DNA from: a virus
Length of the DNA stretch: 39,845 nt
Reading direction: 5' to 3' (one strand)
IMG/VR virus record: IMGVR_UViG_3300032241_001210
Span: 1-39,845 of that record
Shown: positions 1 to 36,829 of the stretch, piece after piece
Position numbering within the stretch: position 1 is the first letter of the stretch
How the letters are laid out: each line of letters begins with the position of its first letter
Notes under the pieces: generated by a model
Told to the model about the DNA's origin: nothing
What the model saw: the letters and a program-made list of their open reading frames with translations, nothing else
The model's database searches: none
Made by a program: the position numbers and the translations under genes

Positions 1-150
1 CCAAAGCATCGTGGCCGGGCGGTCATACGAATACATCGGCCATTGCGGATTGGCGACCAGTTCCTCAAAACCGGGCAGCGGGCCAATGTGGCCAGTCAGG
101 TCGAAGCCGCCGCAGTGGCTTGGTGGGTGTTCTGGTTGATAACGTGCCAT
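1..150 (-). CDS. Partial hypothetical phage protein, N-terminal 50 residues
   Basis: Reading leftward from an ATG at 150, 50 codons stay open to the window edge, so the C-terminus is missing. The start is preceded by a GAGGGA ribosome site seven bases upstream. The visible part is hydrophilic and rich in Pro, His and Trp (begins MARYQPEHPPSH) with no membrane segment or motif I recognise. It follows the gene at 193-480 after a 42-base gap, so both are probably one leftward transcript. The function is unknown. Confidence 0.6.
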   Translation of the reverse strand, partial: MARYQPEHPPSHCGGFDLTGHIGPLPGFEELVANPQWPMYSYDRPATMLW

Positions 151-192
151 TATCATTTCCCTCGGTGCGGGGCCGGAGCCCCGGGTTGGGTG

Positions 193-480
193 TTAGAGGC
201 TAGTGTAAAGCCCGGTCATCCGTTCAAACGAAGACCGGAGTTCTTCAGCGTAAATGCCGGTCTCGGTCGCAACCGAAGTAACCGTCAGGCTGCGATATTT
301 CATGGTTTCGACGGTGTAGTCGTCAGCGCCGGTCAGGGTCACGCGGACCATGTTTAGCTTGCGAGCGCCGGGAACGCGCATGGCCAGGGAATTTTCGGAA
401 CCAACCAGGTCTTTTGCACCGGTCATCGCCAAAAAGCGGCGGCCGCCGAGTTGGTCAAGAATGGTTTGCGCTACAGTCAT
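193..480 (-). CDS. Conserved phage hypothetical protein, 95 aa
   Basis: I chose the start at 480 (MTVAQTILDQLGG) because GGAGA lies eight bases upstream. A longer frame reaches 543 but has no ribosome site. The pattern 'ILxQLGGxxFxxMTGA' at residues 7-22 and the ending 'FxxxTGLYTSL' resemble a small protein widely carried in early or accessory regions of tailed phages, whose function is not known to me. It is predicted cytoplasmic, with a mixed alpha/beta look and no Cys. It reads away from the late operon and is probably driven by the promoter candidate at 529-557. Confidence 0.75.
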   Translation of the reverse strand: MTVAQTILDQLGGRRFLAMTGAKDLVGSENSLAMRVPGARKLNMVRVTLTGADDYTVETMKYRSLTVTSVATETGIYAEELRSSFERMTGLYTSL

Positions 481-528
481 CGGTCTATCTCCGTTTTGGC
501 GCGACCTGATCGCCGCTGCCGTGCAACC

Positions 529-557
529 GTTATGGCCCACCACGCGCCATCCGTCAA
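529..557 (-). promoter_or_regulatory. Leftward sigma70-like promoter candidate
   Basis: On the minus strand TTGACG (557-552) is followed by 17 bases and CATAAC (534-529). The predicted start lies near 522, giving a leader of about 40 bases to the gene starting at 480. This lies in the 143-base gap between divergent genes. I saw no convincing rightward promoter in the same gap. Confidence 0.4.
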
Positions 558-623
558 CAACTAATTTGCGTGTAGGCGAAAAAATCTGATTGCGCGGCCC
601 GATGGGTTGGCGTAGAACGGAGC

Positions 624-755
624 ATGACTTCGGGATGGAGGGATGCAGTATTGAGACATTTTCTGATCGGCGCGGCCCGAGACATCATCCCGACCGCTGA
701 GCAGCGCGCAACCTTGGTGCGTGATACCCAAGAGCGTTTGCAGGTATGGGCATGA
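624..755 (+). CDS. Small hypothetical protein, 43 aa
   Basis: ATG at 624 has CGGAG five bases upstream and opens a 43-codon frame (begins MTSGWRDAVLRHFL). Its stop overlaps the next start as ATGA at 752-755, which argues that both are translated. The peptide is amphipathic, mostly helical in character, with several Arg and no membrane segment. No family is recognised. It is the first rightward gene of the window and sits just upstream of the packaging genes. Confidence 0.5.
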   Translation: MTSGWRDAVLRHFLIGAARDIIPTAEQRATLVRDTQERLQVWA

Positions 756-1099
756 AAATCCTTAATCGCGCGGACTTTCTGAAACTTCCGCCGGGCACGC
801 TGTATTGCCAGGGCGAGCGGTGGGCATTTGGGCCGCTGGCCGTCAAGGGCGAGACGCTCGACAATGATTGGTCGTATTGGAAACTCTCTTGGCCGGGAGG
901 TAAGCTATCAAATAAAGCGGCGAAATCGCTGGATGAGTTGCTCGAAACCGGCGCATCATTCAGCGCGTTTTCGGCGTCAGGTCGCGATGGTAACTTCGAT
1001 CCGGACGCCATTTTCTTGGTGCTGGAACTTAGGGACCTGTTGGCGTTATGCGATCATGCAAACCGCGCGCTTGATGTGTGCCCCGAAAACCGGGCATAA
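752..1099 (+). CDS. Hypothetical protein, 115 aa
   Basis: The start at 752 (MKILNRADFLKLPPGTLY) overlaps the previous stop by four bases. An in-frame codon at 746 gives two more residues but has no better ribosome site. The sequence looks like a compact soluble alpha/beta protein: 'FLKLPPGTLYCQGERWAFGPLAVKGET' in the first third and an acidic helix 'DAIFLVLELRDLLALCDHA' near the end. Similar small proteins with a 'FLxLPxGTxY' opening occur near phage terminases, but I know no function. Confidence 0.65.
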   Translation: MKILNRADFLKLPPGTLYCQGERWAFGPLAVKGETLDNDWSYWKLSWPGGKLSNKAAKSLDELLETGASFSAFSASGRDGNFDPDAIFLVLELRDLLALCDHANRALDVCPENRA

Positions 1100-1108
1100 T
1101 CCATACCC

Positions 1109-1540
1109 ATGAGCGATAAACCATCCCCAAAGTCTGCCCGAAAAGGCACCGGCAAGGGCCACGGTGGCCCGGCGAAAGGCGCTGGCCTTGGCGATGGCTG
1201 GGGCGGCCCGGCCAAGGGTGCGAGCAAAACGGCGGGTCTGATCGCGGAAAGCGGCCACCGTGTCGCGGTGGTGCCGCCCGAGGTTGCCGGGCGTAAAAAG
1301 GCGCATCGGGAACAGATGATCGCGGTTTACGAGGATATCGCGCTGGACACAGAAGCGCCGCCCGCCGCGCGGATCATGGCGGCGGAAAAGTGGCTGGACC
1401 GAGAGGAAGGCAAAGTTCCGCAGGGTTTGGCATTGGGTGGCATGGCGAACGCCCCGCCGATTGCATTCGACGCGGGCAAACTATCGGCGGAGGAGCGGGC
1501 CGTGTTGCGTGGGGCATTGATGAAGGCGAAGGGGACATGA
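1109..1540 (+). CDS. Candidate terminase small subunit, 143 aa
   Basis: The protein starts with a Gly/Lys/Ser-rich disordered tail (residues 1-45, including 'GKGHGGPAKG'), followed by a helical part with 'KAHREQMIAVYEDIALDTEAPPAARIMAAEKWLDREEG' character, the region that in related small terminases forms a DNA-binding or oligomerising helix bundle. It lies two genes upstream of the large terminase, the usual order, and overlaps the next gene by ATGA at 1537-1540. A small terminase would recognise phage DNA and load it on the large subunit. The assignment rests on position, size and composition, not on a diagnostic motif. Confidence 0.6.
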   Translation: MSDKPSPKSARKGTGKGHGGPAKGAGLGDGWGGPAKGASKTAGLIAESGHRVAVVPPEVAGRKKAHREQMIAVYEDIALDTEAPPAARIMAAEKWLDREEGKVPQGLALGGMANAPPIAFDAGKLSAEERAVLRGALMKAKGT

Positions 1541-1728
1541 AGCCCCGCACCATGCCTCCGACGCTCAATGAAATCATCGCCGCGATCCGTGAGCGGGACG
1601 CCGGTTCGCCGCGTCGCCTGTGCGATCCGATCCGGTGGGATACCGCACTGGCGAATGAGGTTGAGCGGTTGCGAGCGCAGTTGTGGCCATCAGCAACCCG
1701 CGTCAGTTGGTCCGACCCCGCGAAATGA
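1537..1728 (+). CDS. Small hypothetical protein between the terminase genes, 63 aa
   Basis: The start codon lies in the ATGA overlap with the candidate small terminase, and its own stop overlaps the large-terminase start as ATGA at 1725-1728. The peptide (begins MKPRTMPPTLNEIIAAIRERD) is a short charged helix pair ending in 'NEVERLRAQLW'. It has no membrane segment or recognised domain. The two exact four-base junctions make it likely to be translated and coupled to the terminase genes. Confidence 0.65.
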   Translation: MKPRTMPPTLNEIIAAIRERDAGSPRRLCDPIRWDTALANEVERLRAQLWPSATRVSWSDPAK

Positions 1729-4451
1729 CCACGATCCAACTCGGCCACGATGTCGTGGATGTGGATCAAGCGTTGATCGCGTTGGACCGGGCTGAGTGCG
1801 CGGACAGTCTGGCGGCGTTCATCCGGCTGGCGTGGCCGATCGTCGAACCCGGCCAGCCTTATACCCATGGATGGCATATTGACGCCATGTGCGAGCATCT
1901 GGAGGCTATCACATGGCAGGAAATCCCTGATTACAATCGCCTGTTGATAAACATTCCGCCCGGGACGATGAAAAGCCTGTGCGTGTCGGTGTTCTGGCCC
2001 GCCTGGGAATGGGGGCCGCAAAACATGCCGCATTTACGGTATTTGTGCGCCAGTCATTCGCTTGATATTGGCGTTCGGGACAGTATGAGGATGCGGCGGC
2101 TGGTGTCGAGCGATTGGTTTCAGGACCGATGGCCGCATGTCGTCCTGACCAAGGATCAGAACCAGAAAACCAAGTTTGAAAACACCGCGACGGGGTTCCG
2201 GCAGGCTGTGGCGGCCGGGTCTATCACTGGTTCGCGGGGAGACCGGGTGATTTGTTTCCCGGCTGATGAACTGGTCCATACAGAACATGGGTTGCGTTCG
2301 ATTGGTTCAATCGTCGAGGATAGATCGGCGGTCAAAGTATGGTCCGCCGATCCGCTCACCGGCAAACGGGAACTGAAACGGGTTATCGGCTGGCACAGGA
2401 ACCCGGCATCCCAATTGGTTGAAGTGGGTTTGTCCGATGGGTCACGGTTCCGATGCACGCCCGATCATCGGATCTGGACCGGTAGAGGATGGGTCGCGGC
2501 CGGGCTTTTGCAGGCCAGTGACCGTATTCCAAACTTTCCCGCGTCGAATGGCTTTTATAAGCGTGTGGCTGACGGCATACCTCTGGCCAAGAGCGCGGCT
2601 GCTTTCATGCGACGCCATGATTTCCTTGACCTGATCGGCCGTCAATTTATGCCAGGGCGTGGCTTCTCCTTGCAAGATATAGCTGCCGCGACGCTTGCCT
2701 TCGGTAATCGCGGACCAATTTGCGCCTCGCCTGATTTCTTGTATGGTTCCGCGTTTGACGCCATACCGCGCCGCAAGCGTATCGGCGGTTTCTCCGCTGA
2801 TGGCGATCTCGGCCGCTTGTTCGCGGGTCAGGATCGCGCCCGGTCTGTTTTCCAAAACCGGGAACGTCCCATGTCGTTTGGCGTCCGCGATATTGTCGGC
2901 GCGCGTTCCATAGCGAAGATTGAACAGTCGGCTATCCGAGCGGTTGCCGTTATGATGGCACACTTCCTGGCCCGGTCCAGGCGGCCCGATAAACGCCAGC
3001 ATCACGACCTGATGGACAAACATTTGCGTCGCTTGTCCGTCCCGGTTGGCGTTAAATCGCGGGTAGCCTTTGGTTGGAGGCGTTTTAAGGATTTTCTCCG
3101 GGATCGTGAGGCTTCCCCTTCCGATCCTTGGGACGATGCGGCCTTCGCTGCGAACGCGGCCCATATCGCTGACGCTGTAAAGTCCTTCAAAGCCAGGAAT
3201 CGGTTTCCATTGTTTGTGAGGGACGCCGGACATGTGGATGAGACCTTTTGTTTGACGGTAGAGGATCATCATACATTCTTTGTGGGGAATGGCAATGGTG
3301 TATTGGTTGCCAACTGCGATGATCCCCATTCAGTCGAGGGCGCGGCGTCGGATCAAATGCGTCAGACAACCATTGAATGGTTTACGGAGGCGGTTCCTAC
3401 CCGCCTGAACAATCCTGACAGTAGCGCGATTGTCGTGGTCATGCAGCGGTTGCATGAGGAAGACGTGTCTGGGGTCATCCTTGACCGGCAACTAGGCTAC
3501 GACCACCTGTGCTTGCCAATGCGGGCCACGTTATGGCGGAAGGAACACCCAACGAGGATTGGCTTTGTTGATCCGCGTGAGGAAGAAGGGGAATTGTTGT
3601 TTCCCGAGCGGTTTCCCGAAGAAGTGGTCGCGCGTGACGAGCGGGTGATGGGGATTTATGCGACCGCCGGACAGTTCCAACAAGAGCCCGCGCCACGCGG
3701 CGGTGGCGTCATCAAGCGCGAATGGTGGCAGCTTCACACTGAGAAAACTTACCCGCCGATGGATTTCATTATCGCGTCACTGGATACCGCCTACACCGAA
3801 AAGACCGAGAACGACTTTTCCGCGCTGACGGTCTGGGGCGTGTTTTCCGGTGCAATGGTCTCATGGGCGAACAAGTGGGCCGCGCCGGGATCGCGATTGA
3901 TGGATATTGGGGATCAAACGCTTCGGTTTGATGAGGCGATGCAGGTCAAGTCCCGTTCGGACCAATTCGGCGGCGACTTGCCGCGCGCCATGCTCATGAC
4001 GGCATGGGCTGAGCGGCTGGAATTGCACGCGCTGGTGTTGAAGGTCGCGCAGACCTGCCGGGCGATGAAGGTGGATCGTCTGTTGATCGAAGACAAGGCG
4101 GCGGGCCATTCCGTGGCGCAGGAATTGCGGCGGCTATTCGGCCATGAGGATTGGTCCGTCCAACTGGTGAACCCTGGCCGGATTGATAAACTGGCGCGGC
4201 TGCACTCGGTGTCGCATCTGTTCGCGGAGGGGATGATCTACGCCCCGGACAAAGCGTGGGCGGATATGGTCATTCAGCAAGTGAGTGTGTTTCCGAAGGG
4301 GAAGCACGACGATTTGGTTGATTGCGTTAGCATGAGTTTGCGCCACCTTCGCGACGCGGGTATGCTGAAACGTGCGCCGGAATGGGCCGCTGATGCGGCG
4401 GATGGGATGCGTGCAACGGGCGGCGATCCGCCGCCGATTTATCCGGGGTGA
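1725..4451 (+). CDS. terL: Terminase large subunit precursor with intein, 908 aa
   Basis: This is the DNA-packaging motor, acting at the portal. The precursor has an ATPase domain with Walker A 'PPGTMKS' at residues 78-84. It is then interrupted by an intein (177-530) placed immediately before the acidic pair of Walker B ('GDRVI' / 'CDDPHSVEG'). The nuclease domain carries Asp687 ('LDTAYTEKTENDFSAL'), Asp790 ('LLIEDKAAG') and Asp862/863 ('KHDDLVD'). Removing 354 intein residues leaves 554 aa, a normal size for TerL. I chose ATG 1725 because it forms an ATGA overlap with the upstream gene. A GTG at 1683 would add 14 residues. The 'ALIALDRAECADSL' opening is typical of TerL of alphaproteobacterial phages. 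Confidence 0.95.
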   Translation: MTTIQLGHDVVDVDQALIALDRAECADSLAAFIRLAWPIVEPGQPYTHGWHIDAMCEHLEAITWQEIPDYNRLLINIPPGTMKSLCVSVFWPAWEWGPQNMPHLRYLCASHSLDIGVRDSMRMRRLVSSDWFQDRWPHVVLTKDQNQKTKFENTATGFRQAVAAGSITGSRGDRVICFPADELVHTEHGLRSIGSIVEDRSAVKVWSADPLTGKRELKRVIGWHRNPASQLVEVGLSDGSRFRCTPDHRIWTGRGWVAAGLLQASDRIPNFPASNGFYKRVADGIPLAKSAAAFMRRHDFLDLIGRQFMPGRGFSLQDIAAATLAFGNRGPICASPDFLYGSAFDAIPRRKRIGGFSADGDLGRLFAGQDRARSVFQNRERPMSFGVRDIVGARSIAKIEQSAIRAVAVMMAHFLARSRRPDKRQHHDLMDKHLRRLSVPVGVKSRVAFGWRRFKDFLRDREASPSDPWDDAAFAANAAHIADAVKSFKARNRFPLFVRDAGHVDETFCLTVEDHHTFFVGNGNGVLVANCDDPHSVEGAASDQMRQTTIEWFTEAVPTRLNNPDSSAIVVVMQRLHEEDVSGVILDRQLGYDHLCLPMRATLWRKEHPTRIGFVDPREEEGELLFPERFPEEVVARDERVMGIYATAGQFQQEPAPRGGGVIKREWWQLHTEKTYPPMDFIIASLDTAYTEKTENDFSALTVWGVFSGAMVSWANKWAAPGSRLMDIGDQTLRFDEAMQVKSRSDQFGGDLPRAMLMTAWAERLELHALVLKVAQTCRAMKVDRLLIEDKAAGHSVAQELRRLFGHEDWSVQLVNPGRIDKLARLHSVSHLFAEGMIYAPDKAWADMVIQQVSVFPKGKHDDLVDCVSMSLRHLRDAGMLKRAPEWAADAADGMRATGGDPPPIYPG
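2442..3233 (-). CDS. HNH homing endonuclease encoded antisense within the TerL intein, 263 aa
   Basis: The protein has a NUMOD4 opening ('WKPIPGFEGLYSVSDMGRV', residues 9-27) and an HNH_3-type domain with His74, His93/His94, Asn95 and Asn105 ('VCHHNGNRSDSRLFNL'). Two homologous DNA-binding helix-turn-helix repeats follow, at about 135-177 and 197-239 ('LTxxQ...YxV...I..IRRG..W'). This is the full layout of a phage homing endonuclease. I chose ATG 3233 because the NUMOD4 domain starts right after it and AAAGG lies about a dozen bases upstream. The frame continues to 3329 upstream. The gene lies wholly inside the intein on the opposite strand, codon-in-register with TerL. Its last ~25 residues overlap intein block B and are probably not part of the folded enzyme. 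Confidence 0.9.
   Translation of the reverse strand: MSGVPHKQWKPIPGFEGLYSVSDMGRVRSEGRIVPRIGRGSLTIPEKILKTPPTKGYPRFNANRDGQATQMFVHQVVMLAFIGPPGPGQEVCHHNGNRSDSRLFNLRYGTRADNIADAKRHGTFPVLENRPGAILTREQAAEIAISGETADTLAARYGVKRGTIQEIRRGANWSAITEGKRRGSYILQGEATPWHKLTADQVKEIMASHESSRALGQRYAVSHTLIKAIRRGKVWNTVTGLQKPGRDPSSTGPDPMIGRASEP
3268..3295 (-). promoter_or_regulatory. Promoter candidate for the antisense HNH gene
   Basis: On the minus strand TTGCCA (3295-3290) is followed by 16 bases and TATGAT (3273-3268), each one mismatch from consensus. The predicted start near 3261 leaves a leader of about 28 bases that contains the AAAGG ribosome site. The promoter lies inside the DNA encoding intein blocks F and G, so the same bases serve splicing and transcription of the nuclease. 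Confidence 0.5.
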
Positions 4452-4459
4452 AAGATGAC
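4436..4459 (+). repeat. 24-bp direct repeat, copy 1 (end of terL)
   Basis: A perfect 24-base direct repeat with 4826-4849. It covers the last codons of terL (IYPG), the stop, the ribosome site GGGGTGAAAG and the first codons (MT) of the next gene. Confidence 0.9.
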
Positions 4460-4841
4460 AAAACCATACAATCTGAAATGGTGGCTGGAAGCCGACGATC
4501 TACCTCATCGGTTCTGGCACCCATTCAGGCGCGCGGCCGAGTGCCGCAAGAGACTGGAATATGTCACGCGGCGTTTGGATGGAGCTGAAAACCGAATTGC
4601 CATGATGTTAAAAGAAGAAAGCGAAGCGGGGAAAATCGGGATTGCTCTGTATGTTGAAAACGAACTGTTGCGAGCGAAAATTGGAAAAGACAGTATATTC
4701 ACGCCGCCTGATAATCCTCATGCGAGAGAAATCGAAAATTTGCGGATGAAAAACCGCGATCTTGAAGCAAGGTGTTGGGCGATGGCGAAAGCGTTGGATC
4801 AACAGGTTGTTGAGGCGTTGGACAAGATTTATCCGGGGTGA
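4455..4841 (+). CDS. Coiled-coil hypothetical protein, 128 aa
   Basis: The start (MTKPYNLKWWLEADD) has GGGGTGAAAG just upstream and lies three bases after the terL stop. Residues 25-128 are strongly helical and charged with heptad-like spacing ('RLEYVTRRLDGAENRIAMML', 'REIENLRMKNRDLEARCWAM'), which suggests a coiled coil. There is no membrane segment. It ends in the same 'IYPG' tail as TerL because both gene ends lie in a 24-bp repeat. It may assist packaging, by position only. Confidence 0.7.
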   Translation: MTKPYNLKWWLEADDLPHRFWHPFRRAAECRKRLEYVTRRLDGAENRIAMMLKEESEAGKIGIALYVENELLRAKIGKDSIFTPPDNPHAREIENLRMKNRDLEARCWAMAKALDQQVVEALDKIYPG

Positions 4842-4849
4842 AAGATGAC
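4826..4849 (+). repeat. 24-bp direct repeat, copy 2
   Basis: Identical to 4436-4459. It covers the end of the coiled-coil gene, its stop, the ribosome site and the first codons of the gene starting at 4845. The repeats bracket the coiled-coil gene almost exactly. Confidence 0.9.
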
Positions 4850-5042
4850 CCGTCCCGAACCCCTGGCTGAAATCAAGGCTCGCGCAGAATTGAGGATGCA
4901 GGCCTTCGACATGATACCAGCGCACCTCCGTCCGCTCATGTGTGCCACGAATGATCATTACGTGGCACATCGGCTCTATCTGGCGGGTGCCCGGACGTTC
5001 GAAGAAGCCGAAACATTGGTGCCGATGCTGCGGCCCCGATAA
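4845..5042 (+). CDS. Small hypothetical protein, 65 aa
   Basis: Translation starts at 4845 (MTRPEPLAEIKARAELR) with the repeated GGGGTGAAAG ribosome site. The peptide is helical and basic at its start, with 'AHRLYLAGARTFEEAETLVPML' near the end. I recognise no family. It is the last gene before the 141-base regulatory gap and ends at the A-tract that, on the other strand, is the U-tract of a terminator. Confidence 0.6.
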   Translation: MTRPEPLAEIKARAELRMQAFDMIPAHLRPLMCATNDHYVAHRLYLAGARTFEEAETLVPMLRPR

Positions 5043-5074
5043 AAAAATCCCCTCCGTGCGACACGAGAGGGGAT
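5041..5074 (-). terminator. Rho-independent terminator reading leftward
   Basis: ATCCCCTC (5047-5054) pairs with GAGGGGAT (5067-5074), and the stem extends inward by CGTG/CACG (5055-5058 / 5062-5065) around a three-base loop with one bulged A. On the minus strand it is followed by seven T (5047-5041). On the plus strand the A-tract precedes the hairpin, so it would not act as an intrinsic terminator for the terminase operon. Confidence 0.7.
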
Positions 5075-5102
5075 GAGTGGGTATCCAGGGGACGTCCCGG
5101 CC

Positions 5103-5131
5103 TTATTAGGCCATCTAACGGGCGTTGTCAA
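5103..5131 (-). promoter_or_regulatory. Leftward promoter candidate, TTGACA-N17-TAATAA
   Basis: On the minus strand TTGACA (5131-5126), 17 bases, then TAATAA (5108-5103). Its last spacer bases and -10 region (AGATGGCCTAATAA) closely match the promoter at 10823 (AGATGGTCTAACCA). The -10 lies in a perfect inverted repeat GGCCT-TATT-AGGCC (5099-5112), and another palindrome, GGGACGTCCC (5089-5098), lies at the predicted start. Transcription would run only about 55 bases to the terminator at 5041-5074. Confidence 0.45.
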
Positions 5132-5136
5132 CAATC

Positions 5137-5165
5137 TTGACACATGACGGGATATCCGTTAGTTG
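5137..5165 (+). promoter_or_regulatory. Rightward promoter candidate upstream of the portal gene
   Basis: TTGACA (5137-5142), 17 bases, then TAGTTG (5160-5165), a weak -10. Its -35 and that of the leftward promoter form an inverted repeat, TGTCAA-N5-TTGACA (5126-5142). The predicted start near 5172 is only about a dozen bases before the portal ATG and would fall in the AGAGGTG ribosome site, so the real start may differ. Confidence 0.3.
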
Positions 5166-5183
5166 CCTCTGCCAGAGGTGCTA

Positions 5184-7499
5184 ATGGCTCTAACGCCCGG
5201 TTTGTCCCCTTCGATCCGCCAACCCCCGCCGCCGCCCGGTGAGCGGTTCTCGGATGGCGACGTGTTGGTTGATGGCGACGATCCCGGCGGGGATCGCGAC
5301 GTGACGAATGGCGCGGGCGACCTTATCAAGATCGAGCATGACGACGGGTCGGTGACGATCACGCTGGATGGTGCGCCGCTCAAGCGGGCCAGGAAAAGTA
5401 AGGCGTCCTGGTTTGACAATCTCGTCGATGAGATTGACGCGATGGAGTTGTCGCGCATCGCGGAGGACCTGTTGCGGGGTATCCGGGACGATCTGGCCAG
5501 CCGGAAGGATTGGATCGAGAGCCGGGCACTTGGTATCCAGCTTCTCGGCCTGAAAACAGAAATTCCCGGTTTGGGTGGGTCCGCTGATGGTGCGCCGGTC
5601 GAGGGGATCAGCCGGGTTCGTCATCCGCTTTTGTTAGAAGCGGTGTTACGTTTCCAGGCTAACGCTCGGTCAGAGCTACTACCAACGGACGGGCCGGTCA
5701 AAATCCGGGACGATGCCAATGGGGATACGGCCGAGGAAGATTTGCTCGCGACGGCCCTCGAAAACGACATGAACCATTACCTGACGTCTACGGCGACGGA
5801 GTATTATCCGGACACGGATCGCATGTTGCTGATGCTGGGGTTCGGCGGGACGGCGTTTAAGAAGGTCTATTATTGTCCGCTTCGCAACCGGCCGGTCAGT
5901 GAGACGGTGGACGCGGACGATCTGATTGTGAACGCGGCGGCCACGGACCTCCGCAACGCGCGCCGGATCACGCACCGGTCGATGATGAAGCCGTCCACGG
6001 TCAAGCGGCTGCAAATTCTGGGGGTTTACGCGGATACGGACCTGTCCGCGCCGCACATGCAAGACCTGGACAGCGTGCAACGGGAAAAGCGGGCGCAACA
6101 GGGCATTGAACAAGCCCAGATGAACCCGGACGACCGCGACCGCGAGATATACGAATGCTATTGCGAGTTGGATATCAAGGGGTTTGAACATGAGCATGAG
6201 GGGCGGCCGTCAGGTCTGGAAATCCCCTATTGCGTGACGATCGATCTGTCGTCCCGTCAGGTTCTGGCGATCCGCCGCAATTATGATGAAGATGACCAGG
6301 AATTGCCCGAAGCGCGGTGTGATTTCGTCAAATACACGTTTGTTCCTGGGTTTGGTTTCTACGATATCGGGTTGCTGAACATCCTCGGCAACACGACGAA
6401 CGCGGTCACGGCGGCATGGCGCGAATTGCTGGATGCCGGGATGTATTCCAACTTTCCGGGATTTCTGGTTTCGGATGCCGGTGGGCGTCAGAATACCAAT
6501 ATCTTCCGCGTGCCTCCGGGCGGCGGGGCTCAGGTCAAGACCGGCGGCATGCCGATTTCTCAGGCCATCATGCCGTTGCCATACAAAGAGCCGTCACAGG
6601 CGCTCATGGCGTTGGTGGATAACATCGCGCAGACCGGCATGCGGATCGGCGGCACATCAGAACAGCAAGTCGGGGAAGGCCGGGCGGATGCCCCGGTCGG
6701 AACCACGCTGGCGATGATTGAGCAAGCCACGAAAATCCTTAATTCAGTCCATAAGCGGCTTCATGCTTCTCAGGCTGAGGAATTCCAGTTGCTGGCGCGG
6801 GTGTTCAAGGAAAACCCCAAGTCTTTCTGGCAGCGCAAACGGAAGAAGGCCTATCCGTGGGATGAAGAGACATTCTTGCGCGCGCTGGAAAACTGCCAAC
6901 TGATCCCGCAGGCTGATCCGAACACGGCGAGCCATGCGCAACGGGTCATGAAGATCATGGCCTTGAAGCAACTACAGGCCGCGCAACCGTCTTTGTATGA
7001 TCCCATTGCGATTGACAAAGCGGCGTTACAGGCCATTGGGTTCAACAACCCGGATCAGTTCATGGCGCCCCCGCAGGCGCAGGCGTCGCCGCCGCCGGAA
7101 CTGTTGGAAGCTCAGGCGCAAATCCGCCAGGGCGACATTGAGGCGCAGGCAGCCAAGACGGCGGCGGATGCCAGGATGCTGGATGCGCAGACCAAGGCGA
7201 AAATGGCCGGTCTGGCGGGGCAATCCGGGCCATCTCATGCGGAACTCGGGTTGAAGGCGGCCGATCTCCATTTACGGGCCAAGCAAATCGCCCTGGAACA
7301 CGAAAACAAACAGGCGGCGGTGGCGCAATCCGCGAAGTCCGACGCGGCGAAGATCGATATCGAACGGATGCGGATGGCGACCGAAGTCATGAAGGAACAG
7401 TCGCACGTCACGCATGAACAGGCGTTGAAAGATAAGGATATCATTGCCGGGCAGATGCCAAAGCCCGAAGCCCCGAGGGGGAAACCAGATGTTGAATGA
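5184..7499 (+). CDS. Portal protein, 771 aa
   Basis: The portal is the dodecameric ring at one capsid vertex through which DNA is packaged and ejected, and it docks the terminase. The core has the pattern seen in P22/SU10-type podoviral portals: 'KYTFVPGFGFYDIGLLNILGN' near residues 393-413, then 'AAWRELLDAGMYSNFPGFLV' and 'GTTLAMIEQATKILNSVHKRLHASQAEEFQLLARVF'. The C-terminal ~160 residues are Ala/Gln/Lys-rich and probably a long helical barrel or disordered crown. ATG 5184 is chosen for AGAGGTG five bases upstream. The frame opens 21 bases earlier at a TTG. Its stop overlaps the next gene by 11 bases. Size and position after terL fit. Confidence 0.92.
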   Translation: MALTPGLSPSIRQPPPPPGERFSDGDVLVDGDDPGGDRDVTNGAGDLIKIEHDDGSVTITLDGAPLKRARKSKASWFDNLVDEIDAMELSRIAEDLLRGIRDDLASRKDWIESRALGIQLLGLKTEIPGLGGSADGAPVEGISRVRHPLLLEAVLRFQANARSELLPTDGPVKIRDDANGDTAEEDLLATALENDMNHYLTSTATEYYPDTDRMLLMLGFGGTAFKKVYYCPLRNRPVSETVDADDLIVNAAATDLRNARRITHRSMMKPSTVKRLQILGVYADTDLSAPHMQDLDSVQREKRAQQGIEQAQMNPDDRDREIYECYCELDIKGFEHEHEGRPSGLEIPYCVTIDLSSRQVLAIRRNYDEDDQELPEARCDFVKYTFVPGFGFYDIGLLNILGNTTNAVTAAWRELLDAGMYSNFPGFLVSDAGGRQNTNIFRVPPGGGAQVKTGGMPISQAIMPLPYKEPSQALMALVDNIAQTGMRIGGTSEQQVGEGRADAPVGTTLAMIEQATKILNSVHKRLHASQAEEFQLLARVFKENPKSFWQRKRKKAYPWDEETFLRALENCQLIPQADPNTASHAQRVMKIMALKQLQAAQPSLYDPIAIDKAALQAIGFNNPDQFMAPPQAQASPPPELLEAQAQIRQGDIEAQAAKTAADARMLDAQTKAKMAGLAGQSGPSHAELGLKAADLHLRAKQIALEHENKQAAVAQSAKSDAAKIDIERMRMATEVMKEQSHVTHEQALKDKDIIAGQMPKPEAPRGKPDVE

Positions 7500-35284: not shown

Positions 35285-35711
35285 TAGCACCGGGGGCGGG
35301 GATTGAACCCGCGACCCACGACTTCAAAGGCCGTTGCTCTACCGCTAAGCTACCCCGGATTGATGCGCGTTCAATCAGCTGCACGCCGCCATCCTTCTGG
35401 CGCATATTCGCGCTGGTTCCGAACCTCATAGACGCCATGACACGCACTAGCGTCTCGTGCGTGTCATGGTCGCGCAGGTGTTTCAGTTCGGTCGGTTCCA
35501 TCACTTCGAGGTAAGCGATGAACGCATTTGCTTCGTCGATGAACCGATCCGCGGCCCGGCTTTCGATAACGTGATGATGGCCGGTTTCGCTATGGGCAAG
35601 AATGTGGACGCCGCGCTCCGCGACGGCGGTTTTCAGTCCGGCCGGAACCGCATCGATGCGACGGATCATCAAATCACCCTGGAAAGACGGGCGAGTGGTA
35701 ACTTTCTTCAT
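35247..35711 (-). CDS. Conserved phage protein with C-terminus running through tRNA-Gln, up to 154 aa
   Basis: Residues 8-50 ('SFQGDLMIRRIDAVPAGLK' and 'GVHILAHSETGHHHVIES') match a small phage and prophage family that usually ends with a 'DTHE' segment and a short basic tail; 'RDHDTHETLVRVM' is here at about 80-92. From residue ~114 the frame enters the tRNA and finds a stop only at 35247, inside the convergent lysis gene. The last ~40 residues are therefore suspect. The natural end may have been replaced when the tRNA arrived, or tRNA processing may cut the message. The start overlaps the upstream gene by ATGA and has AGGAC upstream. Confidence 0.7.
   Translation of the reverse strand: MKKVTTRPSFQGDLMIRRIDAVPAGLKTAVAERGVHILAHSETGHHHVIESRAADRFIDEANAFIAYLEVMEPTELKHLRDHDTHETLVRVMASMRFGTSANMRQKDGGVQLIERASIRGSLAVEQRPLKSWVAGSIPAPGAITEPRRPAPSRP
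35288..35359 (-). tRNA. tRNA-Gln (anticodon TTG)
   Basis: A full cloverleaf folds on the minus strand: acceptor TCCGGGG/CCCCGGT (six pairs and a U-U mismatch at 1-72), D-stem GCTT/GAGC, anticodon stem ACGGC/GTCGT with loop CTTTGAA (anticodon TTG), five-base variable region, and T-stem GCGGG/CCCGC with loop TTCAATC. Length is 72 bases without CCA. G73 and a weak first pair are known identity traits of tRNA-Gln, which supports the call. The gene lies wholly within the 3' part of a protein frame on the same strand. Confidence 0.9.
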
Positions 35712-36829
35712 GTCCTGTGTTCCTTTTGTTTCAACAGGTCGGCGGGGATGTCGTAAGTCCAGGCGTTCGCGGCCAGCGCGGTCGGAATGTCGCTGGGAAC
35801 AGGCAGCGCGAATTGACGGCCTGTTCCACAGCGAGCGCGGAGGAAACGCTCACGCCCGCTGTCCGGTAGATTGACCTCAAGTAGTATACCAATTTCCGGA
35901 TCGGGATCGCGATCAATTTCGACCGCATCCAGTTCGTTCAGTATCCGATCCCATCCCAGCATTTCACACGCGGCCCGGCGCTGCTCAAGGTTTTCGGTCC
36001 GCAGCGCGATTGAGGCGGTAAGCGTCTCGGGATGTTCGATCCAATCTTCCGGGATGGTCGTCCCGTGCCAATAATAAAGAGACCATCCGTCCGGATAAGC
36101 GCACGCGGGTCCGGATGGGTTATGGAGACGGCCCTGGTCATCACGAATAATCGTTGCGTGCCGCTCAGAGACGAAACAAATGTCGCGGAAGGGGATTGTC
36201 CATCCCGCTGAGCGGGCAAGTTCCCACAGACCTTCGAGGCGTTGGGTTTCTTTTTTCAGTCCCACCACATCATGGAAGTAGCGATAAAAAGCAAGCCAAT
36301 TCGCTTCGTGTTGTCCATAGACGCTGTCCAAGACGCTGTCGCGGACGCTGTCCGAGACGCTGGTCGAGACGCTGGCGCGGACGCTGGCCAAGACGCTGGC
36401 GCGGACGCTATCCGAGACGCTGTCCCAGACGCTGGCCGAGACAGCGTCCCGGACGCTGGTCGAGATGCTGTCGCAGACGCTGTTCCAGACGCTGGCCGAG
36501 ACAGCGTCCCGGACGCTGGTCGAGATGCTGTCGCAGACGCTGTTCCAGACGCTGGCCGAGACAGCGTCCCGGACGCTATACCGGACGCTGTCCCCGACGC
36601 TGGCGGGCATTTTGAATAAAACGGCCCGCGTCAGCGCCATGCTCATCGGCGATCCGCACCACACGACACGAGGTGCCGCAAGCCCCGCGATTTCATACAT
36701 TTTCGCGATGGCGCGTTCCGCGCGCGGCCGGTCGGCGGGTTCGGTGCATAGCCTTATCGCGGTCCATTCCGCGACGTAATCGTCGAATTTGGCAATCTGC
36801 TCAGGCGTCAGGTGGTTGATTATCGTCAT
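35708..36829 (-). CDS. DUF6745-like protein with tetrapeptide repeats, 373 aa
   Basis: An N-terminal helical part (residues 1-75) leads into a repeat block (about 76-170) of four-residue units of the form x-S-V-x, such as 'SVRDAVSASVWNSVCDSIST'. The C-terminal part carries the DUF6745-type sequence: 'YGQHEANWLAFYRYF', 'FVSERHATIIRDDQGRLHNPSGPACAYPDGWSLYYWHGTTIPEDWIEHP', and ends 'ALAANAWTYDIPADL'. This domain is of unknown function and occurs in actinobacteria and phages. The repeat block may form a regular solenoid or serve as a variable-length spacer. AAAGGA precedes the start. No membrane segment is predicted. Confidence 0.8.
   Translation of the reverse strand: MTIINHLTPEQIAKFDDYVAEWTAIRLCTEPADRPRAERAIAKMYEIAGLAAPRVVWCGSPMSMALTRAVLFKMPASVGDSVRYSVRDAVSASVWNSVCDSISTSVRDAVSASVWNSVCDSISTSVRDAVSASVWDSVSDSVRASVLASVRASVSTSVSDSVRDSVLDSVYGQHEANWLAFYRYFHDVVGLKKETQRLEGLWELARSAGWTIPFRDICFVSERHATIIRDDQGRLHNPSGPACAYPDGWSLYYWHGTTIPEDWIEHPETLTASIALRTENLEQRRAACEMLGWDRILNELDAVEIDRDPDPEIGILLEVNLPDSGRERFLRARCGTGRQFALPVPSDIPTALAANAWTYDIPADLLKQKEHRT
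36320..36603 (-). repeat. 12-bp unit array with 60-bp higher-order tandem repeat
   Basis: Some 24 units of the type GACGCTGKCCNN follow one another in register, each encoding one x-S-V-x tetrapeptide on the minus strand. Within it, a 60-bp period is nearly perfect over about 2.6 copies (36425-36578). Such DNA readily changes length by slippage in whole 12-bp steps, which keeps the reading frame. Confidence 0.9.

Follow-up and report, generated by a model that had tools for sequence, protein, structure and literature searches.

A NUMOD4–HNH nuclease encoded antisense to a terminase intein, with probable expression signals in the C-terminal splicing blocks

How can a homing nuclease be produced when its gene lies on the strand opposite to the protein-splicing element that houses it? 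The homing nuclease of inteins is usually in frame, so that splicing and nuclease are made together. A different arrangement is found in the IMG/VR virus record IMGVR_UViG_3300032241_001210 (39,845 base pairs; the window is the whole of this stretch). There, the gene for the terminase large subunit (TerL) is interrupted by an intein, and the minus strand of this intein holds a complete open reading frame (ORF) for a nuclease with NUMOD4 and HNH_3 domains (Table 1). The two frames overlap codon on codon, every nuclease codon being the reverse complement of one intein codon. We regard it as nearly certain that the element is an antisense nuclease within an intein.

The locus and its family

The antisense protein matches NUMOD4 with an expectation value (E) of 1.6e-11 (44.7 bits, cut-off 23.4), HNH_3 with E 4e-9 (36.4 bits, cut-off 24.8), and phrog_59 with E 2e-47. 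Its nearest solved structure is that of I-HmuI (PDB 1u3e), a NUMOD/HNH intron-encoded homing endonuclease that it resembles in sequence (E 1e-7) and in predicted fold (E 1.4e-7, the best fold match). I-HmuI differs in being sense-encoded in a group I intron. On the sense strand, the interrupted gene matches the TerL profile phrog_38 (E 7e-77) and, under the cut-off, Terminase_6C (0.0017). The empty site is seen in the intein-free TerL of MW202675, where GDRVI is followed directly by IDDPHS; in the window, the intein stands between GDRVI and CDDPHS.

Table 1. Coordinates of the features discussed, in window positions
Feature	Position	Strand	Remarks
TerL gene, intein-interrupted	1683..4451	+	open frame of 922 amino acids (aa); upstream ATG/GTG start alternatives
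Intein, 354 aa, Cys1 to Asn354 before Cys+1	2253..3314	+	inserted by the DDPH (Walker B) motif
Intein residues 98-314, middle part antisense to the nuclease	2544..3194	+	AlphaFold predicted local distance difference test (pLDDT) <50 across exactly 98-314; no predicted structure
C-terminal splicing blocks F and G (ETFCLTVEDHHTFFV...GVLVAN/C)	3240..3314	+	from the codon table
NUMOD4 + HNH_3 nuclease, 263 aa	2442..3233	-	wholly within the intein; codon-on-codon antisense to it
Nuclease start codon ATG, antisense of block-F His codon CAT	3231..3233	-	start aligned in all 31 members
Shine–Dalgarno core AAGG	3244..3247	-	10 nucleotides (nt) ahead of the start; antisense of Thr-Phe codons
Sigma-70-like promoter candidate TTGCCA-16-TATGAT in blocks F and G	3268..3295	-	10/12 consensus bases, spacer 16

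We propose that the locus holds a mobile TerL intein, with the gene for its homing nuclease running antisense to that for the splicing protein. On the sense strand, the ribosome would read through the intein and yield two Hint halves joined by a mirror peptide of about 215 residues, after which the intein would splice out. On the minus strand, the 5′ region of the nuclease gene, with promoter, Shine–Dalgarno (SD) site, and start codon, would be formed by the final 80 nt of the intein, which correspond to blocks F and G (named as in the usual intein motif nomenclature). Most likely doubling as promoter and ribosome-binding region, these 80 nt would allow nuclease production independent of the terminase message. 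The nuclease's own transcript would give an I-HmuI-like NUMOD4–HNH enzyme which, judging from its family, would cut or nick intein-free terL and drive copying of the intein. The mechanism as a whole, an antisense nuclease driven by signals in blocks F and G of a mobile TerL intein, is in our view rather likely; splicing, the transcription start, nuclease activity, and homing are the steps that we infer.

Relatives were gathered by searches with the nuclease and with the intein as queries, and then checked locus by locus. At least 31 distinct TerL inteins carry an antisense nuclease inside them in the codon-on-codon phase: the window and the loci L087, L088, L089, L004, L094, L099, L096, L221, L091, L093, L095, L097, L098, L101, L111, L259, L224, L296, L263, L261, L331, L295, L267, L229, L276, L277, L262, L260, L301, and L340. 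The number is a lower bound, since three of the searches covered the top 80 loci out of 132, 162, and 325 confirmed ones. In all 31, the nuclease is antisense, and the conventional same-strand, in-frame arrangement does not occur among them; at the level of sequence, both the arrangement and its recurrence are established. One member (L004) lies in a GenBank phage genome, that of Escherichia phage BUCT618 (OM735461), where the record annotates the terminase only and the 223-aa antisense nuclease at 1001-1672 (+) is unannotated.

Among the 80 loci of the nuclease-query set, the nuclease lies inside a TerL intein only in L007 and L008, both known before. Antisense open frames without splicing blocks were rejected (L009, L011, L017, L282, L318, and L321), and inspection likewise excluded L322, L294, L316, and L324 from membership. 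L266, a close relative of L263 and L261, was kept out of the set, with its nuclease in two pieces and its sense frame truncated; its nuclease matches sit in two adjacent frames, which suggests a frameshift arising from mutation or from sequencing error.

Near the terminase DDPH motif, the insertion points lie a few residues apart from one another, as would fit several separate invasions. When the 31 members were placed in a quick tree with 53 further relatives of the nuclease, they formed groups of 13, 8, 5, 2, 1, 1, and 1; with this scatter over seven groups, a single origin is not established. Nuclease identity and splicing-domain identity are correlated (r 0.65, with none of 2000 permutations equal or higher), which indicates that nuclease and splicing domain travel together.

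Probable expression signals in blocks F and G

The plainest double constraint appears to be on translation, with the start codon and the SD site embedded in block F. In 31/31 members, the start codon lies antisense to a His codon of block F (CAT giving ATG, except in L091, where CAC gives GTG), and in L003 a stop codon immediately upstream makes the aligned start the sole possible one. The SD site is the antisense of neighboring Thr/Ser or Pro codons: AAGG or TAGG lies 10 nt upstream in most members, opposite Thr ACC or, in all four Ser-bearing members, opposite TCC. In L267, L276, L277, and L295, the start-His is elsewhere, and AGGAGG, GGAGGG, AGAGGG, and AGGAGG, respectively, stand directly before the start. 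In 15 of 16 groups, pairing with the anti-SD sequence is stronger than synonymous codon choice would predict, with a mean z of −1.33 (−0.01 for 55 control inteins).

The sequence-only reading of the window had claimed a promoter, TTGCCA-N16-TATGAT, in the same blocks just before the nuclease start. It is located exactly there on the minus strand (3295..3268), 34 nt ahead of the start at 3233. In positions 1-6000, it is the best of seven sites with at least 9/12 consensus bases (shuffles give 2.5 +/- 1.5). By the same rule, it is among only four sites with at least 10/12 in the whole window (three on the minus and one on the plus strand), so that the chance expectation for the 82 nt of minus strand from the nuclease start to the intein end is about 0.004 sites. 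The −10 element is the reverse complement of the H-H-T codons (3267-3275) and the −35 element that of the N-G-N codons (3288-3296). Because the promoter consists of codons of conserved intein residues, a fair null must hold the protein fixed. With the protein held, the window site alone is not significant, a first point against promoter function: p is 0.139 and 0.087 in synonymous shuffles, 0.075 when codons are drawn by ORF usage, and 0.303 when they are permuted locally. A single genome cannot settle the promoter question. This exact site is a good candidate, and the prediction that it is active in this phage is evenly poised.

For the family, the controls were inteins whose blocks F and G a pattern could locate (55, then 13 more); L105, first a control, was dropped from the later tests (the 31-member test and that matched for AT content at third codon positions, AT3) once its nuclease remnant was recognized. 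As 33 of the 67 controls are cellular and distant, the 34 viral inteins are the better control. At the homologous block-F site, all 26 loci with a block-F His (including the remnant L100) are above the synonymous mean, with a mean z of 1.24 (−0.2 in the 55 controls). In a region test, which takes the best promoter anywhere from the nuclease start to 45 nt beyond the intein end, 30 members have a mean z of 1.33, compared with −0.09 in 145 C-extein windows, −0.20 in 87 N-extein windows, and −0.26 in the 55 control inteins. After addition of L340 and of the further controls, the 31 members average 1.30 (27/31 members and 16/17 groups positive) against −0.08 in the 34 viral controls (Mann–Whitney p 6e-6). 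The opposite strand of the same region gives a z of 0.44, and when the columns of the motif are permuted, all 60 versions stay below the true motif. Over groups, the family z spans 1.06-1.39 across tests. By sequence comparison, the SD signal is not random, and the promoter signal of the family appears not to be. The sites themselves differ: TTGCCA-16-TATGAT is identical in L259, and is replaced by TTGCCA-16-TATGGT in L262, TTGACT-17-TATGAT in L097 and L098, and TTGACA-17-TATGAT in L295. Lineages appear to use different hexamers within the same 80 nt.

Several further points weigh against promoter function. The promoter matrix holds E. coli frequencies and may not suit the hosts; the 17 groups were drawn by hand, and each brings together loci that are kin to one another. 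Of the 32 aligned loci, six (L004, L101, L111, L224, L296, and L174) have no block-F His behind the −10 element and are not scorable. The close relatives L087 (TTCCCC-17-TATGGT) and L089 (TCGCCT-16-TATGAT) reach only 6.3 bits (p 0.66 and 0.75), and z is negative in L087, L089, L095, and L277. Under local codon permutation, the family mean is lowered to 0.82, with p<0.25 in just 37% of 30. No single −10/−35 position is conserved, the position profile being a diffuse excess over the region, and T-ending codons at the block-F xH are frequent in the controls also (31/46 vs. 23/26). For the SD site, L259 and L224 show pairing in the opposite direction.

The best-surviving alternative accepts the nuclease as real and translated from the SD site and start in block F, but has its mRNA begin at a promoter outside these blocks (in the C-extein or beyond) or arise by general antisense transcription; the hexamers of blocks F and G would merely follow from the protein motif and from AT-rich codons close to the start. 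The −10 element is indeed mostly dictated by the block-F motif (D/N)-H-(N/T/S), which is common to the nuclease-free controls (TATGAT occurs in 9/55), GC content at third codon positions is lower in the region (0.44 vs. 0.58), and the promoter sequence is weak in L087, L089, and L277. Yet AT-richness as the sole cause can be rejected: the AT3-matched synonymous null retains most of the signal, with a group mean z of 1.06 against 0.13 for permuted motifs (0/40 as high), −0.15 for the viral controls, and 0.11 for C-extein windows. Also against an outside promoter, the minus strand of the window has no other site with at least 9/12 consensus bases between 3296 and 6000. We consider an outside promoter unlikely, if worth keeping in mind.

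The preferred reading, in which nuclease expression signals including a promoter are probably hidden in blocks F and G, thus keeps part of what the sequence-only reading had claimed. Its promoter survives as a family-level sigma-70 excess beyond protein and codon usage, which is not seen in nuclease-free inteins or in other gene parts; the exact bases are not fixed. The comparison of synonymous sites that it proposed between inteins with and without the nuclease places the members above the controls in z, and leaves the window alone short of significance. The promoter bases do vary among relatives as far as the exact site is concerned (in L087 and L089, in loci without the block-F His, and where other positions are used), whereas promoter capacity is retained; an early impression from three relatives, that the bases vary freely and the idea was failing, was overturned at the family level by the larger set and the synonymous nulls. 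A double constraint is plainest for the start codon and SD site, as antisense of block-F codons, and is probable for promoter capacity; the named pair of hexamers is not conserved. Across the family, we judge promoter function in blocks F and G to be fairly likely.

Constraint on both frames and the nature of the insert

Substitutions at nuclease codon positions 1, 2, and 3 amount to 0.246, 0.164, and 0.486 in 17 within-group pairs, every one of which shows higher identity in the nuclease than in the sense frame. With this codon-position pattern and this excess of identity, the nuclease is the constrained product within the overlap, and its frame is under purifying selection. On the sense strand, codons that would mirror a stop (TTA, CTA, and TCA) are absent from 30 members (TTA and CTA, 0/479 Leu; TCA, 0/444 Ser) and present in 122 other relatives (400/1277 Leu and 148/946 Ser). 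An open antisense frame was required in finding members, so that these zeros partly reflect selection by the search, but the relatives indicate how commonly such codons arise where no intein frame has to stay open. Just 18 of the 122 relatives have no mirror-stop codons over the matched domain; several of these are short or GC-rich, and at least two, L266 and L283, belong to the antisense-nuclease family. As far as sequence can tell, both frames are maintained, the sense frame open and the nuclease frame constrained.

Three further loci (L100, L174, and L105/L335) have been cut down to remnants without loss of the intein frame; they keep the nuclease start and nuclease fragments, most of the gene being lost. 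They are apparently decay intermediates with a surviving intein frame. Such remnants, together with the L266 nuclease split across two frames, are what one would point to if the nuclease frame were generally a decaying or silent relic, open by chance. This is very improbable, given the codon-position pattern, the conserved starts and SD sites, and the residues His93 and Asn105 of the HNH motif and Asn114, conserved in 31/31 members (His and Asn have catalytic roles in I-HmuI).

That the insert is an intein at all is indicated by its ends (CFPADELV... at the start, ...GVLVAN before the Cys at the finish) and by the splicing residues, all present: Cys1, the block-B TxxH (T69-H72), Asn354, and Cys+1, with Cys1, T69, H72, and Asn354 unvaried among 15 aligned inteins. 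AlphaFold predicts the two Hint halves at pLDDT ~90, and their top Foldseek matches are mini-inteins (E 5e-7). The intein middle, about 215 residues, is probably an unstructured mirror peptide, as modeled. A passenger translated with the terminase like the ShiLan element (see below), with neither intein nor protein splicing, is the most improbable alternative: the Pfam profiles PF14890 and PF07591 (Hint/intein) do match under their curated cut-offs (21.8 of 35.8 and 24.5 of 27.7 bits; PF14890 also in a second profile search), these being database criteria and not functional ones, and Ala/Ser precedes the terminal Asn instead of the usual His, but the splicing residues, the Hint fold with its mini-intein matches, and an insertion in the ATPase Walker B motif, where a passenger would be damaging, stand against it.

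Known systems and further observations

In the open-access literature searched, we recognized no report of an antisense nuclease gene inside an intein. The closest likeness is to the ShiLan element, a phage methylase insert with a hidden HNH (PMC11855218). In both, an apparently mobile insertion stays open in the frame of the host gene while a different frame conceals an HNH, and expression of the ShiLan HNH is unexplained. The ShiLan HNH is on the same strand, in the third frame, with no detectable splicing domain and, according to the authors, no ribosome-binding site (PMC11855218). Unlike it, the window nuclease is antisense, within a Hint intein, and has an SD site and a promoter-like sequence in a splicing block.

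Antisense homing endonuclease genes also occur in myxomycete nuclear group I introns (Dsq.L2066/I-DsqI; PMC9548176). There too, the homing nuclease is opposite in strand to a self-splicing element, and the authors propose a separate promoter. Dsq.L2066 differs in being an RNA intron in eukaryotic ribosomal DNA with its gene in a peripheral insertion, so that no protein frames overlap (PMC9548176). TerL inteins are well known, and mycobacteriophage examples lie in the ATPase domain, including the Walker motifs (PMC5050341), a location shared with the window intein; in the portion of that text available, no antisense nuclease is mentioned, and the words "antisense" and "opposite" have no matches. 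The dCTP deaminase intein of CL131 (PMC6293099) also combines an intein with an HNH-type nuclease, but in frame, on the same strand, and as part of the intein protein.

Inteins with antisense homing endonuclease genes may, on balance, represent an undescribed class of mobile inteins, in which a splicing block read in reverse is a complete cassette of promoter, SD site, and start, and the mirror peptide needs only to stay open. If so, splicing and nuclease would each have a strand of their own, which would let them be activated independently in time, and the same bases would spell a splicing motif in one direction and expression signals in the reverse direction, splicing and mobility sharing bases. 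This would also account for missed annotation, as in the BUCT618 record. As a natural codon-on-codon antisense overlap with both frames clearly selected, the family suits tests of how overlaps originate and persist.

Conventional inteins with an HNH-type segment in frame are present in L357, L388, and L397, in genes resembling ribonucleotide reductases, and are a possible source of, or comparison set for, the nuclease. The TerL of L002/L087 (2912-6646 of L002, minus strand) bears two inteins: the antisense-HNH one at Walker B and, at the P-loop, a conventional one containing a LAGLIDADG-like motif (LLGYLIGDGSL). In L091 (3190-4059, minus strand), the nuclease has a Lys/Arg/Pro-rich insertion after the HNH core, absent in the other 14 aligned members. 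Elsewhere in the window, positions 35708-36829 (minus strand) encode a DUF6745 protein (Pfam E 3e-37).

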